A DNA stretch of 64,000 bases, taken from Methylophilus medardicus (lineage in GTDB: Bacteria > Pseudomonadota > Gammaproteobacteria > Burkholderiales > Methylophilaceae). The stretch covers positions 2,294,001 to 2,358,000 of the forward strand of contig NZ_CP040948.1 in NCBI RefSeq assembly GCF_006363955.1, given 5' to 3'. The position numbers and the translations under genes were made by a program. Position 1 is the first letter of the stretch. Each line of letters starts with the position of its first letter. Under the pieces are notes generated by a model. It searched no databases, was not told the DNA's origin, and saw nothing but the letters and a program-made list of their open reading frames with translations. Below are positions 20,222 through 53,513 of the stretch, one piece after another.

Positions 20222-22882
20222 TCATCCATGCGTGCCATTTTTGCGTGGCCCTGCTGAATGGAATCCGCGACGACTAGGCTGCTGTGTTTCCAACTTGAAT
20301 TGACTAATCACATCTGCCAGCTGATTGGCTTGATCCACCAAAGATTCCGCTGCTGCCGCTGCCTGCTCAACCAACGCGGCGTTCTGCTGAGTCGTATCAT
20401 CCATGCTGGTCACCGCCTGATTGACTTGATCAATCCCCGCCGTTTGCTCGGTCGACGCGGCTGATATCTCATTAATAATATCTGCCACACGCTGCACAGA
20501 GCTGACCACTTCATCCATTGTGATGCCTGCGTTTTCGACTAACTTGGTACCCTCTGAGGTCTTTGCTACAGAGTCCGTAATGAGCGCTTTAATTTCTTTG
20601 GCTGCGCTGGCTGAACGCTGCGCCAAGCTACGCACCTCGCCGGCCACCACTGCAAAACCACGGCCTTGCTCGCCAGCGCGTGCAGCCTCCACCGCCGCGT
20701 TAAGCGCAAGGATATTGGTTTGGAAAGCGATGCCATCAATGACCGAAATAATATCTTCGATCTTTTTAGCACTGTCATTGATCTCGCCCATGGTGGAAAC
20801 TACCTCATTGACAACCTTGCCACCTTTGATCGCAATTTCAGAGGCAGTGAGCGCTAACTTATTCGCCTGTACCGCATTTTCTGCGTTCTGCTTAACGGTG
20901 GATGCCAACTCTTCCATGCTGGCGGCCGTTTGCTCAAGACTCGATGCCTGACTTTCTGTGCGCGCTGACAAATCGGCGTTGCCGCTCGAAATCTCATTCG
21001 CGGCAGTGGTGATGGTTTCAATCGCCTGCGTCACCGCAACAATCGGCGCCACAATCAAGTCTAGGGTATTGTTCACCCCTTCCACAATTTGACGGAAATC
21101 CCCTGCATGATTGGCCGTATTGGCGCGCACAGTGATGCGACCCTCGCGTGCAGCGTCAGCCAGCAGATTCACGTCTGCCACCAGCAGATTGACGGCATCA
21201 ATACAGGTATTCAAATTGTTTTTAATGGCGTTGAAATCGCCTTGATATGGCGCACTGATCTTGGCAGGGATTTGCCCATTAGAGATATCTGCCACACATT
21301 GTGCCGCCACATTTAACGGCCCGATCACTGAATCTAAGGTTGCATTAAAGCCGGCGACAATATTTTTAAAGTCGCCTTGATGACTAGACGTATCAGCACG
21401 GGTGGACAACCGGCCTTCAATCGCTGCTTGTGACAATTGGTTCACATCTGCAGTCAATGCATTCACCGCATCAATACATTGATTTAAATTGCGCTTGATG
21501 GTGTTGAAATCGCCATGGTATTCCTCCGTGATTTTTGGCGGAATATGACCTTTAGAAATCTGTTCTACATATTTGGCTGCGACATTGAGTGGATTAATGA
21601 GCGCCTCTAAAATCTGATTGATGCCTACGCCAATTTGTTTCACAAACCCTTCGGGGAGCTGTTGCGTATCGACCCGTTGCGACAGGTTACCTTGGGCGGC
21701 CTCTTGCACCAGACGAAACACCTCTTGCTCGCCTAACGACTCTGCCGTGCGATCGGTCCATTGCGACATGCGGCCCAAGTACTCGCCTTGGCCATTAAAC
21801 ACCGGCACAATCAGCACGTGCATAGTTTTGCCATACATATGCACTTCGGCAGCGGTTGGCTGCGACAACTTCTGCGCAAATAATGCCGACTGATCCGAGT
21901 GCGCAAGGTATTTCCCAATGCTGCTGCCTATCATCTGGTCAACGGCGTATCCGGGGAACACCTCACCAATTGCCGTAGCCATTTCACCCCATAAGCGTTT
22001 AGCAGCGCCGTTCATATATTCGAGATTGTGTAGGCTATCGGCAAACATCAAAGCCACCCCGCTTTGGTCTAGTGCGGTCTGCACACGGTTAGATTGCTCT
22101 GCCAGTTTTCTGCTGTCGTTTAAATCAAAGCCAATTTTGATTTGCATGGATTTGATCATTTTCATCAAGCGACCAAATTCGTCATCGCCCCGGGTATCCA
22201 CCGGCACATCGAGTTGCCCGCCTGCCAACCCGTTGATGGCATCACTCATTGCAAGCAATGCACGCTTCAACTTGGCTGAAAACAACACCGTTGCAGTCGC
22301 AGCAGTGGCGAGCCCTACACCAATGCTCAGCCAATTCAAGGGTTTCGCGGTATAAGCATCGATGGCCGTCATCACCAGCAACGGACTCAAAATGGCGGCC
22401 AGCAATTTATAAGTGATCGAGGTATCGCGTACACGCTCGGTGACGCGCTGCACCCAGCTGACGGTGGGCAGTTTGCCGTCCCGCAGCTGTTGGTATTGTT
22501 TTTCAGCCAGCGCAATTTGCTCACGGGTGGCGATAGAACGCACAGACATATACCCTACCACCGAAGCGCCTTCGCGAATCGGCGCCACATTCGCTTCAAC
22601 CCAATAGTGGTCACCGTTCTTACAACGGTTCTTGACCATCCCGTTCCAGGGCTTACCCGCTTTCACCGTGCGCCATAAATCTTCAAAGGCGGCGGCTGGC
22701 ATATCCGGGTGACGAATCATGTTGTGGTTGTGCCCAACCAACTCCGACTCAGAAAACCCGCTCACCTCAATAAAGTCGCGATTAATATATGTAATCGCAC
22801 CCTTCAAATCTGTTTTAGAAACAATCGAAACACCCTGTTTTAAAAGGATTTCGTGTTGGGTCACAGGTAAATTTATCTTCAT
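20222..22882 (-). CDS. PAS-containing methyl-accepting chemotaxis protein with tandem HAMP-like repeats
   Basis: I place the start at ATG 22882 ([17 protein letters not shown]), preceded by a GGCGGCG stretch; the frame is open 23 codons further. Order: N-terminal Aer-type PAS domain ([35 protein letters not shown]), one or two short membrane helices near residues 165-205, HAMP, a second PAS-like segment, then repeated HAMP-like units marked by GDF-x-x-I-x-x-x-x-N-x-x-x-D, and the conserved signalling tip with [20 protein letters not shown] and [19 protein letters not shown]. It would control CheA, probably as a redox/energy sensor like Aer. No NWETF-type tail is seen, and no che genes are near. 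Confidence 0.88.
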
Positions 22883-23052
22883 GATATCGCCGCCTTTGAT
22901 CAGGGATAAAACAACCATCCAAGACTCACTGTACCGCGATATGACTGCCAATCATGTGGGGATAAAAAGGGGGGTCGCTACTTAATTCTGACAATTGAAT
23001 GTTTGCTGGCAAAGCCAGCGCTTGTCAGGCAGGTTCGTAGGCTAAAAATAAA

Positions 23053-23132: not shown

Positions 23133-23906
23133 TTAATGCGCCCCATAAGCAGTATTTAAAGTGTCCAACTCTGCATTATTTTCTGCGGTGTGACACTCAA
23201 GAATATCCATATCCCCTTTGCTGAAAGTCAATTTTTCAACCGTATTGATGTTACCTGCAAACTTGTTGTCGAGCTCGCCACACTTTTTAGTGCGCTGATT
23301 CACAAAGTTAAGATAATCCTTTTTGCGCGCTTCTAGAGCGTGTGCAGAAATACTGCTATCGTTCATAAAGGTGGTATAGGCACGCCTGAGTCTGAGTTCA
23401 GACACACTCCACAGGTTAAAAACCAGCATTTTTTTCTGGGGCTCTTTTTGCGCCACCGGTTCGACCACCGGCAACGGTGCGCTGGTATGGGTTTCTACCA
23501 CCGGCGATACGGCTGGCTCTAACTCAACCATCTGTTGTTCTTCTTTAATCTTTTTTGGTTTCTTGCTGATCAACTTCTGCGCGGGCTTGACTGGCGTGGC
23601 TTGTGCTGGGGTGGGTTCGACGGTCACATTTTCCTGTGCCGCAGGCGCAGGTATTTCCTCGCGGGCAACCTCAGAGACCACCTGAGTCTGCAATTGCATG
23701 ACCTGGTTTGAAAAACCAGAATTACCTTCTTCTTTTAACAAAAGGCCACATAAAATGACCACAATGAGGCCGATCAACATCACATTGACCTTGCCGATAT
23801 CCACCGCGCCACGTTCAGCCAATGGTGGTGTTAATACAAGCGCTGTCTGTTTCGACCCCGTGATGCTGTGAGCGGACATACTGCCTAAATCAAGCCTATT
23901 TCTCAT
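23133..23906 (-). CDS. Single-pass membrane protein with Pro/Glu/Lys-rich linker, unknown
   Basis: A 257-residue protein, no family recognised. A short cytoplasmic N-terminus is followed by one transmembrane helix (about 43-58, VMLIGLIVVILCGLLL), then a long disordered linker rich in Pro, Val, Glu and Lys (about 75-155, with KKPKKIKEEQQ), and a C-terminal helical domain with two cysteines (TKKCGELDNKFAG and ILECHTAENNAELDTLN). The tail faintly recalls the LprI/DUF1311-type cysteine patterns. The TM-linker-domain layout is TonB/TolA-like, but no TonB box or TolA domain can be seen. It may be co-transcribed with the gene ending 145 bases upstream at 24051. Confidence 0.65.
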   Translation of the reverse strand: MRNRLDLGSMSAHSITGSKQTALVLTPPLAERGAVDIGKVNVMLIGLIVVILCGLLLKEEGNSGFSNQVMQLQTQVVSEVAREEIPAPAAQENVTVEPTPAQATPVKPAQKLISKKPKKIKEEQQMVELEPAVSPVVETHTSAPLPVVEPVAQKEPQKKMLVFNLWSVSELRLRRAYTTFMNDSSISAHALEARKKDYLNFVNQRTKKCGELDNKFAGNINTVEKLTFSKGDMDILECHTAENNAELDTLNTAYGAH

Positions 23907-24050: not shown

Positions 24051-24470
24051 TTAAGTTTTAATTACCGGTGTTTTGGCAGATAGAAAAGGCATCCCCATCG
24101 GGTTAGCCACAATGCGCCTCGCCTTTGTAAACGCGCTTGCGCGGCTGTCAGCATGCGCTTTTGATGCATTCATGCGCTCCTCGCGCAGCAACGCATCCAT
24201 AAAATCGCCTTGTTCTAGCGCAGGGGTTCGCTGATTTCCTGATTTAGCGTGCGTTGTCGCTGCATTTGCCAACATCACACCAGCCCTAGCTTGCGCGCCT
24301 GAAAAATAGTTGTGGGCATGCATGTTGTTTTGCGGCGCAGCCCCAATAGAGACTACGGTCATAAAAAAACCAATCATCATGATGACGAGTGCGGCTGACA
24401 CGGCCCCTGCCGTGATTGCAATTAAAGACAAGACGCTGGTCGCGGCATTCGCTGGTTTGTTTGTGTTCAT
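24051..24470 (-). CDS. Hypothetical single-pass membrane protein (139 aa)
   Basis: An N-terminal membrane helix (about 13-45, LIAITAGAVSAALVIMMIGF and FMTVVSIGAA) is followed by a soluble tail rich in Ala, Arg and His. I recognise no domain. A CCTACA-N6-TCAG motif lies 87 bases upstream of ATG 24470, as for the two DUF3309 genes and the DUF2171 gene, which suggests co-regulation with them. It is divergent from the gene at 24666. Confidence 0.65.
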   Translation of the reverse strand: MNTNKPANAATSVLSLIAITAGAVSAALVIMMIGFFMTVVSIGAAPQNNMHAHNYFSGAQARAGVMLANAATTHAKSGNQRTPALEQGDFMDALLREERMNASKAHADSRASAFTKARRIVANPMGMPFLSAKTPVIKT

Positions 24471-24556
24471 GTCAAGTGCCTCCCTGCTTTAGGATTTAAT
24501 CTCATACCGAGACTGAATCATGCCTTAGGCTTTGCCGACACCCTATCGCACGCAGA

Positions 24557-24572
24557 CTGAAACTATTGTAGG
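24557..24572 (-). promoter_or_regulatory. CCTACA-N6-TCAG motif upstream of the membrane-protein gene
   Basis: On the minus strand: AATTCCTACA-ATAGTT-TCAG, 87 bases before ATG 24470. It lies in the divergent region to the gene at 24666, which could also be affected. Confidence 0.5.
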
Positions 24573-24665
24573 AATTATCGTACAAAAAATGCACTGACAC
24601 CCCGTGGCAACACAACCGCATCGTCCCGATGGCTTATAATGTCCTTGTTTAGCAAAGGAAAAAGG

Positions 24666-24995
24666 ATGGACTTCAACGTATTTTCTGCGTTCTATCTGGT
24701 GCCATTGGTGATTTCGGCCATCGGCGGTCTCATTGAATTCAAAAATTGCGAGTTCGCCACCACCCAGCACGCATTGCGCAAAGCTTTTTTTCTGACGTTT
24801 AGAAGCATGGTGCCTGTGCTCAACATTTTCTCTGCCATTTTGTATCTCATCACTTGTGGCACTTTCACTTGGAAAAAATCCACCAGCTGGAAAAAATCCG
24901 CCCGCTGGAAAACATCAACGATCTCAAAAAAATCCGCCCGCTGGAAAACATCAACGATCTCAAAAAAATCCTCAGAAAAATCACCCCATGCTTAA
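24666..24995 (+). CDS. Hypothetical membrane protein whose tail is made by an 18-bp repeat
   Basis: ATG 24666 follows AAAGGAAAAAGG. The first 70 residues form two membrane helices (VFSAFYLVPLVISAIGGLIE; MVPVLNIFSAILYLITCG). The last 40 residues come from an 18-bp DNA repeat and read as hexapeptides TWKKST, SWKKSA, RWKTST, ISKKSA, RWKTST, ISKKSS. The leucine-regular hexads of another frame (LEKIHQ, LEKIRP, LENIND) look more like natural protein, so the present reading may be the product of a frameshift at about 24860. The gene overlaps the SMR gene start at 24988. No family recognised. Confidence 0.55.
   Translation: MDFNVFSAFYLVPLVISAIGGLIEFKNCEFATTQHALRKAFFLTFRSMVPVLNIFSAILYLITCGTFTWKKSTSWKKSARWKTSTISKKSARWKTSTISKKSSEKSPHA
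24869..24976 (+). repeat. 18-bp minisatellite, six units, open in all three forward frames
   Basis: Six consecutive 18-base units begin (C/T)TG-GAA-AA or CTC-AAA-AA and share AAATC or CATC cores. Units 3-4 and 5-6 form an almost exact 36-bp tandem duplication (CTGGAAAACATCAACGAT plus CTCAAAAAAATCC...). Since 18 is a multiple of three and no unit contains a stop, all three forward frames remain open across the array. Confidence 0.85.
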
Positions 24996-25323
24996 ATACT
25001 GGCTCTTTTTATTTGCCGCCATCATCACCGAGGTGATTGCCACCTCGGCCCTCAAGCTCAGTGATGAATTCACCAAGCTCACGCCTTCTGCCGTCGTGGT
25101 GATTGGCTATGCGATCTCGTTTTATTTCTGGTCTCTCGTGCTAAAAGGGCTGCCAATTGGCGTCGCTTATGCCGTGTGGGCAGGCATGGTGGTTGTCTTG
25201 TTGGCAATTGTAGATCTAGTGGTATATGGCCAAACGCTCGATGGCCCCGCCATAGGGGGCATGACGTTGATTGTGGGCGGGGTCATCATCATTAACCTGT
25301 TTTCAAAAACCGTGGCGCAATAA
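24988..25323 (+). CDS. SMR-family small multidrug resistance transporter (EmrE-like)
   Basis: A 111-residue protein with four transmembrane helices. The essential membrane glutamate of EmrE (Glu14) is at position 15 in FAAIITEVIATSALK. Further family motifs: FWSLVLKGLPIGVAYAVWAG and the C-terminal GMTLIVGGVIIINLFSK. It would export cationic or small polar compounds by proton antiport, working as an antiparallel dimer. The start ATG 24988 lies inside the end of the previous gene and has no clear ribosome binding site, so translation may depend on coupling to frames through the upstream repeat. A longer frame reaching back through the repeat to 24856 is not supported by family length. Confidence 0.9.
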   Translation: MLKYWLFLFAAIITEVIATSALKLSDEFTKLTPSAVVVIGYAISFYFWSLVLKGLPIGVAYAVWAGMVVVLLAIVDLVVYGQTLDGPAIGGMTLIVGGVIIINLFSKTVAQ

Positions 25324-25365
25324 CTTGCAAGCCGGCAAGGGGCATACCCCCCCTTGGTCAGATGC

Positions 25366-26274
25366 TTAAAGCGCACGGCTCAGCGTAAACAACAAACGGC
25401 TGTCGTTCAAATGTTTTGTTTGCACCTCGCCGTTGGCGTTGGGCGCGCTATTAAAACTCGAGCCGCCATAGCTGCCCCAATAGCCACGATTACTGGCGCC
25501 TACCCAATACACGCCAGCCGACCAACCCTCACTGCTGCCGATATTAAACGCTTTGCTCAAGCCCAGCTTCCAATCGTTGTAATCAGGATTGGTTTTGTAA
25601 GTGCCCGGCAGGCCATTCGCATTTGGAAAACCATCAGGCTGTAATTGGGCGGATACGTCCATGTGACCCAAGTGACCGATCAGTGTCCAGCCTTGCCACG
25701 GCAAGGGGTAAGCTGCATTGATATCAAGATAGACAGAACCCCGCGTGCTGCCATCCCAGCCGGTGGACCTTTCAGCCCCAAACCAATTGCTAAGCGTATA
25801 AAACACCTTAGCACTCAACCAATCATAGGACAGACCGGCATTCAGTTCCGTCGTGGTAAAACGGCCGCCGGACGGCTTACCCAAATCCAGTGCCAAGCCC
25901 TCATATTTGCGCCAACTGCCCCCAGGATAAAAGTAACTGATCACGCCCAAGCTATAGCCAAGCTTTGCGGCCTGGCTAAAATTACCATTCACACCCGCAT
26001 AGATATCTAACTCAGTGCTCGCTCCCACCAAGGTATTTTGAGATACGCCTGAGCCCCAGACCCCCGCATAAAATCCGCTTGTATGCGCAATATCCAGTCC
26101 AGCTTGCACGGTGGGTTGGTGCCAACTGAGGGAGATTCCGCGGGCATAATAATCAGAAACCAAGCTCAGATTACTGCTAGCCGTCCAAGCGGACGCCTCT
26201 TCCGCAACGGCTAACAGCGGTTGCATGGAGAGCAAAGCCGTAACCAAGGCATAGCGAGTGAACAGTGAGGCCAT
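25366..26274 (-). CDS. TorF-family putative porin
   Basis: About 302 residues from ATG 26274, which places a good signal peptide first (cleavage near LAVAEEA); the frame is open 20 codons upstream, without better support. The start of the mature protein, ASSNLSLVSDYYARGISLSW, then VQAGLDIAHTSGFYAGVWGS, is the TorF (formerly Gcw_chp) hallmark, an outer-membrane barrel of betaproteobacteria and other Gram-negatives. The chain ends in a barrel strand, RLLFTLSRAL. The substrate is not known. It is convergent with the SMR gene. Confidence 0.85.
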   Translation of the reverse strand: MASLFTRYALVTALLSMQPLLAVAEEASAWTASSNLSLVSDYYARGISLSWHQPTVQAGLDIAHTSGFYAGVWGSGVSQNTLVGASTELDIYAGVNGNFSQAAKLGYSLGVISYFYPGGSWRKYEGLALDLGKPSGGRFTTTELNAGLSYDWLSAKVFYTLSNWFGAERSTGWDGSTRGSVYLDINAAYPLPWQGWTLIGHLGHMDVSAQLQPDGFPNANGLPGTYKTNPDYNDWKLGLSKAFNIGSSEGWSAGVYWVGASNRGYWGSYGGSSFNSAPNANGEVQTKHLNDSRLLFTLSRAL

Positions 26275-26409
26275 GTTTGAGCTTTCTTGAGGTAGGAAGG
26301 TGTGTTGAGGGGCACCGAGGTGCATGCTATCCAAGATTGGATATCAATAAAATGTGTATTTTAATACATTAGACCGCTTTTATAATAAGGGCATGATGAG
26401 GGACGCAAA

Positions 26410-53063: not shown

Positions 53064-53513
53064 TTACTCAGCAGCTGGCGCTTCAGCGGCAGCGGCTTCT
53101 GCAGCAGCTGCGGCGGCGGCATCTGCGTCAGCTTTCGCTTTTGCGGCTGCTTCTGCAGCAGCAGCGTCAGCTTCTGCTTTCAATTTAGCAGCGGCTTCAG
53201 CGATTGCTTTTTCTTTCGCAGCTTCGGCTTTGGCAACTTCTTTGGCTTTAACAGCAGCCATACCTTCAGCGCCTTTAGCGTGGAATTTTACCAAACGAGC
53301 AACCGTGTCAGACAGTTGTGCACCGTTGTCCACCCAGTATTGTGTACGTGCTTCATCGATACGCAAGCCTTCAGCGCCAGCGCGTGCAGATGGATTGTAG
53401 AAACCAACGCGCTCGATAAAACGACCGTCACGACGGTTGCGGGACTCTGCCACAACTACGCTGTAAAACGGGTTCTTTTTGGAGCCACCACGTGATAAAC
53501 GAATAACGACCAT
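53064..53513 (-). CDS. rpsP: 30S ribosomal protein S16 with long Ala-rich C-terminal tail
   Basis: A 149-residue product. The first 85 residues are a complete S16: [20 protein letters not shown], then [15 protein letters not shown] and [20 protein letters not shown]. The last 65 residues are a low-complexity tail of Ala, Lys, Glu and Asp (repeats such as [15 protein letters not shown]), far beyond the usual 80-90 residue length. The tail DNA is itself repetitive, which implies growth by slippage. S16 is needed for 30S assembly. First gene of the rpsP-rimM-trmD-rplS operon. Confidence 0.97.

Follow-up and report, generated by a model that had tools for sequence, protein, structure and literature searches.

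Introduction

Translation of adjacent genes by termination-reinitiation has been described in bacteria and archaea, and the parts of the literature used here and below draw the following picture of it. Among gene distances in 1,695 species, -8 nt ranks third in frequency behind -4 and -1; coupling drops steeply with distance so that very short distances are needed for efficiency, and for coupling the final 15 nt of the upstream gene are enough (PMC10666635). The role of the Shine-Dalgarno (SD) sequence in reinitiation ranges from essential to none in E. coli, and none of the H. volcanii pairs tested lost reinitiation altogether when it was removed (PMC6728339). Gene overlaps, in turn, arise by elongation of the 3' end after loss of a stop codon (Fonseca et al., PMC3887535, likewise used in part). 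In the present contribution we analyse a gene junction in a 64,000-nt stretch of the Methylophilus medardicus genome (contig NZ_CP040948.1, positions 2,294,001 to 2,358,000; hereafter the window), at which a gene for a small membrane protein with a repeat-encoded tail (the upstream gene) runs into the start of a gene for an SMR-family transporter. We consider it probable that the two genes form an operon, that the six-unit tail is translated in the original frame of the upstream gene, that a stop codon and an SD sequence once present between the genes are now absent, that the transporter is translated by reinitiation and that the array matters for the tail only.

The gene junction in the window and in relatives

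The features of the junction are as follows (window coordinates).

24635-24640, plus strand: perfect -10 box TATAAT (6/6) of the likely main promoter
24651-24660, plus strand: SD region of the upstream gene, AGCAAAGGAA, -5.6 kcal/mol with the anti-SD
24666-24995, plus strand: upstream gene (ATG at 24666, TAA at 24993-24995), small membrane protein of 109 amino acids with two predicted helices and a basic C-terminal tail
24870-24977, plus strand: array of six units of exactly 18 bp
24891-24971, plus strand: exact 36-bp tandem duplication, 24891-24935 being identical to 24927-24971 over 45 nt
24972-24987, plus strand: stretch aligned in place with the stop codon and SD of relative G013; here it begins with TCA and contains neither
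24988-24995, plus strand: 8-nt overlap ATGCTTAA, comprising the SMR start codon and the stop of the upstream gene
24988-25323, plus strand: SMR-family transporter gene, 111 amino acids (Pfam PF00893, 89.5 bits, cut-off 23.7)

The SMR gene lies directly downstream of the upstream gene in five relatives (G013, G008, G002, G009 and G020). All five have an earlier in-frame stop and no overlap, the upstream gene ending 13, 14, 16, 16 and 82 nt before the SMR ATG, and their SMR genes are preceded by SD sequences with duplex energies of -5.4 to -9.3 kcal/mol. Three further relatives that carry the SMR gene elsewhere have values of -5.6, -6.6 and -8.5 kcal/mol, and a level of -5.4 kcal/mol was reached at no more than 36 of 500 positions drawn at random from the window. 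At the SMR start of the window the best duplex amounts to 0 kcal/mol, so that no SD is present; it is the sole SD-less start among the nine compared. The initial annotation of this stretch had described six 18-base units at the junction and an SMR start that lacks a ribosome binding site, and both descriptions hold, apart from the spacing: the ATG at 24988 lies 10 and not 12 bases past the sixth unit.

The next in-frame stop beyond the present one is a TAA at -8, exactly the stop position of the window, in G013, G002, G009 and G020, and a TGA at -7 in G008. Since this backup stop already lies within the SMR start of the relatives, the loss of one stop suffices to create the overlap. The stretch at the site of stop and SD resembles the second copy of a 12-bp piece: a 12-bp repeat (24959-24970 and 24971-24982, 11/12 identical) overlaps 24972-24987. 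Stop and SD may have been lost by point changes or replaced by this repeat.

We infer that the state of the window is derived, through tandem duplication and stop loss, which is the simplest reading when one genome stands against five. The ancestral layout would have been a separate stop and an SD-led SMR gene as in the five relatives; duplication would have lengthened the basic tail, and the loss of the stop would have carried the upstream gene into the SMR gene. Tails of the relatives contain one to three WKK-like repeats, compared with six 18-bp units in the window. Tandem Repeats Finder reports the 18-bp period at 24870-24971 (5.7 copies, 66% matches, score 92) and gives a 36-bp period a higher score (2.8 copies, 90% matches, score 162). 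The array is thus best described as an exact 36-bp duplication superimposed on an older 18-bp period, and the 36-bp duplication was probably the last and a recent event because 24891-24935 recurs unchanged at 24927-24971. A 30-base pattern taken from the array, searched genome-wide with as many as 3 mismatches allowed, occurs twice, both times within the array.

Two identical terminator-like sites are present in the array on the minus strand (24902-24921 and 24938-24957; 6 pairs, 3 of them G-C), in a region where 4 such sites were found and 1.4 expected. They face transcription from the convergent gene at 25366-26334 and are possibly a by-product of the repeat.

Reading frame of the tail

In the frame of the upstream gene the array is translated as WKKSTS WKKSAR WKTSTI SKKSAR WKTSTI SKKSSE. 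All 14 homologs found in the genus enter the tail in this same frame; as far as the first (W/L/Y)K(K/R) motif they show no insertion or deletion, and frame and length agree. Seven of them have one such motif in the tail and the other seven two or three, for example WKKTGA-WKKSVA-SKKS in G013, WKKSTG-WKKSAF-AKKQ in G008 and WKKSGA-WKKSGQ in G017. The first ~66 residues of the protein are strongly conserved among homologs and the tail varies in length and sequence; it is basic in all 15 proteins (net +3 to +12). When homologs with differing tails of equal length were compared pairwise, the gene's own frame required the fewest amino-acid changes strictly in 9 of 12 pairs, tied in one and did not in two; pairs with identical tails were excluded, the pairs are not independent of one another, and the window gene stands outside this comparison, no homolog being of its length. 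The tails of G002 and G009 differ at three positions, all of them third positions and synonymous in the gene's frame.

The initial annotation had pointed to another frame, in which the array yields regular hexads of the type LEKIHQ, LEKIRP and LENIND, had noted that these look like a real coiled coil and had suspected a frameshift just before the array. The hexads arise when TGG-AAA-AAA-TC is read one base off. Off-frame LEKI or LEE is found in relatives as well, and in G005, G004 and G003 the LEKI frame closes within 7 codons. The hydrophobic moment of the LEKI peptide amounts to 0.08 at 100 degrees, 0.47 at 102.9 degrees and 2.63 at 120 degrees and peaks at 120 degrees, corresponding to a period of 3.0 residues; a coiled-coil control sequence peaks at 102 degrees. 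Prolines occur in two of the six hexads. Period and prolines do not fit a coiled-coil tail in the LEKI frame, and the homologs do not support a frameshift ahead of the array.

Transcription and translation of the gene pair

Of the 15 genomes with the upstream gene, 12 have a TATAAT box within 80 nt of its start codon. The -35 region of the window's box is poor (best 2/6), which is why a stricter promoter scan missed it and which may hint at an activator. A consensus scan of 24450-25420 was negative for promoters, and between the two genes no terminator was found on the plus strand. The segment 24866-24990 has no TA dinucleotide and therefore no TAnnnT box near the SMR start. At -8 nt, the distance between the two genes falls within the range of -8 to +10 nt for same-strand termination-reinitiation pairs, as used in PMC10666635.

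Given one probable promoter, the missing SD and the overlap of -8, termination-reinitiation is the best account of SMR translation, and the coupling that the initial annotation had proposed is likely at the level of sequence. Ribosomes that terminate at ATGCTTAA would reinitiate and thereby provide the main translation of the SMR gene, and the array would act solely through how long and how charged the tail of the first protein is. In E. coli, pairs separated by about 10 nt can accommodate an SD and probably initiate independently (PMC10666635); the spacing in four of the five relatives resembles that of such pairs.

Several observations weigh against this reading. The derived state rests on a single sequence, the species being represented by one genome; two M. 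medardicus assemblies are reported to be identical throughout (PMC8399692). A tree of the upstream gene's core (195 columns, 15 rows) lacks the resolution to polarise this state, with good support for 3 of its 12 inner branches; adjacency of the SMR gene takes 4 changes on it, a value equalled or bettered by 126 of 500 label shuffles. An SD score of 0 kcal/mol was also obtained at 178 of 500 random positions of the window and for 12 of its 47 open reading frames (ORFs; first ATG, at least 150 amino acids), although some of these starts are probably wrong. The array itself holds weak promoter-like pairs at 24892, 24928 and 24964 (8/12 consensus, AAAAAT as second hexamer). A distance of +14 nt cut coupling by 40-80% and did not abolish it (PMC10666635), so that some coupling may persist in the relatives with spacings of +13 to +16 nt. 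In 4 of 5 E. coli pairs reinitiation became substantially weaker once the SD had been removed (PMC6728339), so that coupling at the junction of the window may be weak. Finally, codon usage in the array, scored per codon after training on 23 long ORFs of the window, is highest in the LEKI frame (0.298, compared with 0.018 in the gene's frame and -0.117 in the SMR frame); among 300 pieces of 108 nt from the training ORFs none showed a reversal that large and two showed any. Codon usage thus gave the initial annotation a fair reason to look at the LEKI frame. The array holds few independent codons, however, which makes the score indecisive there, and it says little about the tails of this family, since the LEKI frame outscores the gene's frame in 6 of 15 tails, the window included.

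Alternative explanations

Next to termination-reinitiation, the explanation that fares best is independent, SD-less translation of the SMR gene in an A-rich, weakly structured region, the overlap being incidental. The stretch before the SMR ATG is indeed A-rich and mostly unpaired in the predicted fold, the 12 ORFs of the window that also score 0 show that such starts are not exceptional, and E. coli bioF is initiated independently despite a very weak SD (PMC6728339). All eight relatives compared nevertheless have an SMR SD of -5.4 kcal/mol or better, and overlaps of -8 are typical of coupled pairs (PMC10666635); we therefore regard independent initiation as unlikely, though worth keeping in mind.

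A second group of explanations concerns the open frames of the array and a pair of heptamers within it.

24926-24932, plus strand: A_AAA_AAA heptamer in the gene's frame, first copy
24962-24968, plus strand: A_AAA_AAA heptamer in the gene's frame, second copy

As the initial annotation had stated, all three forward frames run through the array. The LEKI frame is open from 24854 to 25036 and the SMR frame from 24856. Among segments of 108 nt (both strands, step 3) 410 of 42,596 (1%) are open in all three frames of their own strand. Shuffling the bases of the whole array left all frames open in about 0.1% of 20,000 trials, repeating one shuffled unit six times in 18% of 20,000, and reordering the codons of units 2-3 and repeating the result three times in 20,000 of 20,000. 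According to these tests the open frames of the array are due to repetition and codon choice. It had further been suggested that unit number or slippage could alter both the tail and the coupled translation of the exporter. Unit number can affect tail length; effects on frame or coupling are unlikely, because the frame survives any step of 18 or 36 bp and the overlap is situated beyond the array, so that gain or loss of units should change only length and charge of the tail. Judged by its layout, the locus would not show the switch of frame or expression by unit number that marks a phase-variable locus.

Slippage on the A_AAA_AAA heptamers would transfer some ribosomes to the -1 frame, which ends at 25036, or to the +1 frame, which yields a fusion of membrane protein and SMR transporter, and would in this way tune or fuse the transporter. 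Both heptamers, at 24926 and 24962, are zero-frame slippery heptamers as expected for a programmed -1 frameshift, and every frame that slippage could enter is open, the SMR frame from 24856 on. Slippery-type heptamers also occur in the tails of 4 of 14 relatives, each near the stop (A_AAA_AAA in G008, A_AAA_AAG in G003, C_CCA_AAG in G002 and G009), and the predicted RNA fold of 24860-25060 (201 nt) is somewhat better than that of shuffled sequences (z -1.87; 9 of 200 as good). The remaining 10 of the 14 relatives, however, lack such a heptamer in the tail, and the stretch directly after the second heptamer of the window is predicted to be unpaired. In E. coli, according to the sections of PMC5009743 used here, A_AAA_AAA is far weaker than A_AAA_AAG as a slippery site; the slippage described there for bacterial transcription involves stretches of 9 A or T. 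Because of the weak site and the lack of structure after the second heptamer we rate slippage low. Slightly lower still stands the bolder proposal that the array is a recoding device, in which the heptamers let ribosomes or transcripts slip and the number of SKK-type units sets the transporter level. If it were true, +1 slippage would fuse the protein to the SMR transporter, and the -1 product would end past the SMR start and skip reinitiation. With slippery-type heptamers close to the stop in four relatives, an older recoding habit of the tail is conceivable.

In the G003 homolog (L045/L084) the A_AAA_AAG lies in frame within the last codons of the upstream gene. This is the heptamer used by E. 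coli dnaX.

It is similarly improbable that the overlap reflects decay and that SMR expression is being lost in the lineage of the window. The SMR gene seems interrupted in G004 and G001, but the window gene is intact, its product lies above the Pfam cut-off and its differences from the five relatives fall mostly on third codon positions (24/17/61 by codon position when compared with G008). Weakest of all is a frameshift just before the array with the LEKI hexads as the true coiled-coil tail: the regular hexads, the length over which their frame is open and the codon-usage log-odds would suit it. Against it stand the 14 of 14 homologs, which have no indel before the tail and keep that tail basic and WKK-like in the frame of the gene, the hydrophobic period of 3.0 residues, the prolines in two hexads, and the occurrence of off-frame LEKI or LEE in relatives, in three of which that frame soon closes; we consider it very unlikely.

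The two proteins and their surroundings

Of the 187 genomes of the family, 15 carry the upstream gene, and these belong to a single genus; a scan of named genomes gave 11 loci, of which 10 are labelled Methylophilus and one is a Methylophilaceae metagenome-assembled genome. No Pfam or NCBIfam family above cut-off and no PDB sequence match were found for the upstream protein, and the searches gave no plasmid match, no Rfam match and no PHROG better than E 0.056. A structure model of the upstream protein is weak (predicted local distance difference test, pLDDT, 60; predicted template modelling score, pTM, 0.31), with helices at residues 3-27 and 33-82 and a pLDDT below 50 for residues 77-109.

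The SMR protein of the window is 65-70% identical to those of the five relatives with the same arrangement. Its best NCBIfam match is NF033137 of the Qac group (133.4 bits, cut-off 188); it stays under the cut-off for each of the 25 NCBIfam models listed and is therefore not classed as a Qac equivalog. The gene seems to be broken into two overlapping frames in G004 (L081 11099-11429) and into two pieces with stops in G001 (C15:113494-113795), a draft genome that is 88% complete. The transporter may be decaying in part of the genus, sequencing error being the alternative for both breaks. In G017 (L087 4380-4700) the SMR gene is not next to the upstream gene but directly follows a different open frame, which looks like the last part of a UmuC-type polymerase. 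When the SMR frame of the window was extended upstream, it appeared to match the stretch before this gene; as that stretch lies in another open frame and shows no array, the match was taken for a chance one.

Two minus-strand genes (23133-23906 and 24051-24470) are divergent from the upstream gene and adjoin it in 8 of 14 relatives. An ORF of 909 amino acids on the minus strand (20222-22951) appears, by eye, chemoreceptor-like: its start is PAS-like, and HAMP-like stretches recur in it. At 53068-53133 of the window, tandem repeats of 15 and 24 bp overlap; they are rich in GCA/GCG and perhaps belong to an alanine-rich coding sequence.

Comparison with described systems

In the literature on open-frame repeats and repeat-linked overlaps, the portions consulted of the matches listed contain nothing on this locus. 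We regard it as a fairly ordinary case of gene-overlap evolution without a frameshift, and its novelty is modest. It may nonetheless represent a natural example of an operon that moves from separately initiated genes to a coupled pair, with the five relatives probably showing the earlier state. A backup stop inside the SMR start of all five, in four of them at the position used in the window, means that a single stop loss can produce a short overlap at once. The locus also advises caution, as regular off-frame hexads can be a by-product of a repeated codon motif.

With its 111 amino acids and NF033137 as best NCBIfam match, the transporter resembles the SMR proteins of Pfam PF00893 and differs from the Qac equivalog, whose 188-bit cut-off it does not reach. 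The 18- and 36-bp units keep the frame and differ in number between species, as in in-frame coding minisatellites; the comparison class there is surface adhesins, whereas here the tail of a small membrane protein is concerned. The gene pair shares with described termination-reinitiation pairs (Huber et al. 2019, PMC6728339; PMC10666635, as far as the parts used here go) the common strand, the short overlap and the start near the stop, and no strong promoter is seen between the genes; it differs in that no SD is found at the end of the upstream gene, on which 4 of 5 E. coli pairs relied substantially. There is also a resemblance to the overlaps by 3'-end elongation in the part of Fonseca et al. 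(PMC3887535) considered here: the upstream gene of the window passes the stop site of its relatives and ends inside the downstream gene, but its tail is in addition longer through tandem duplication, the SD is absent and the backup stop is in phase in four of five relatives.
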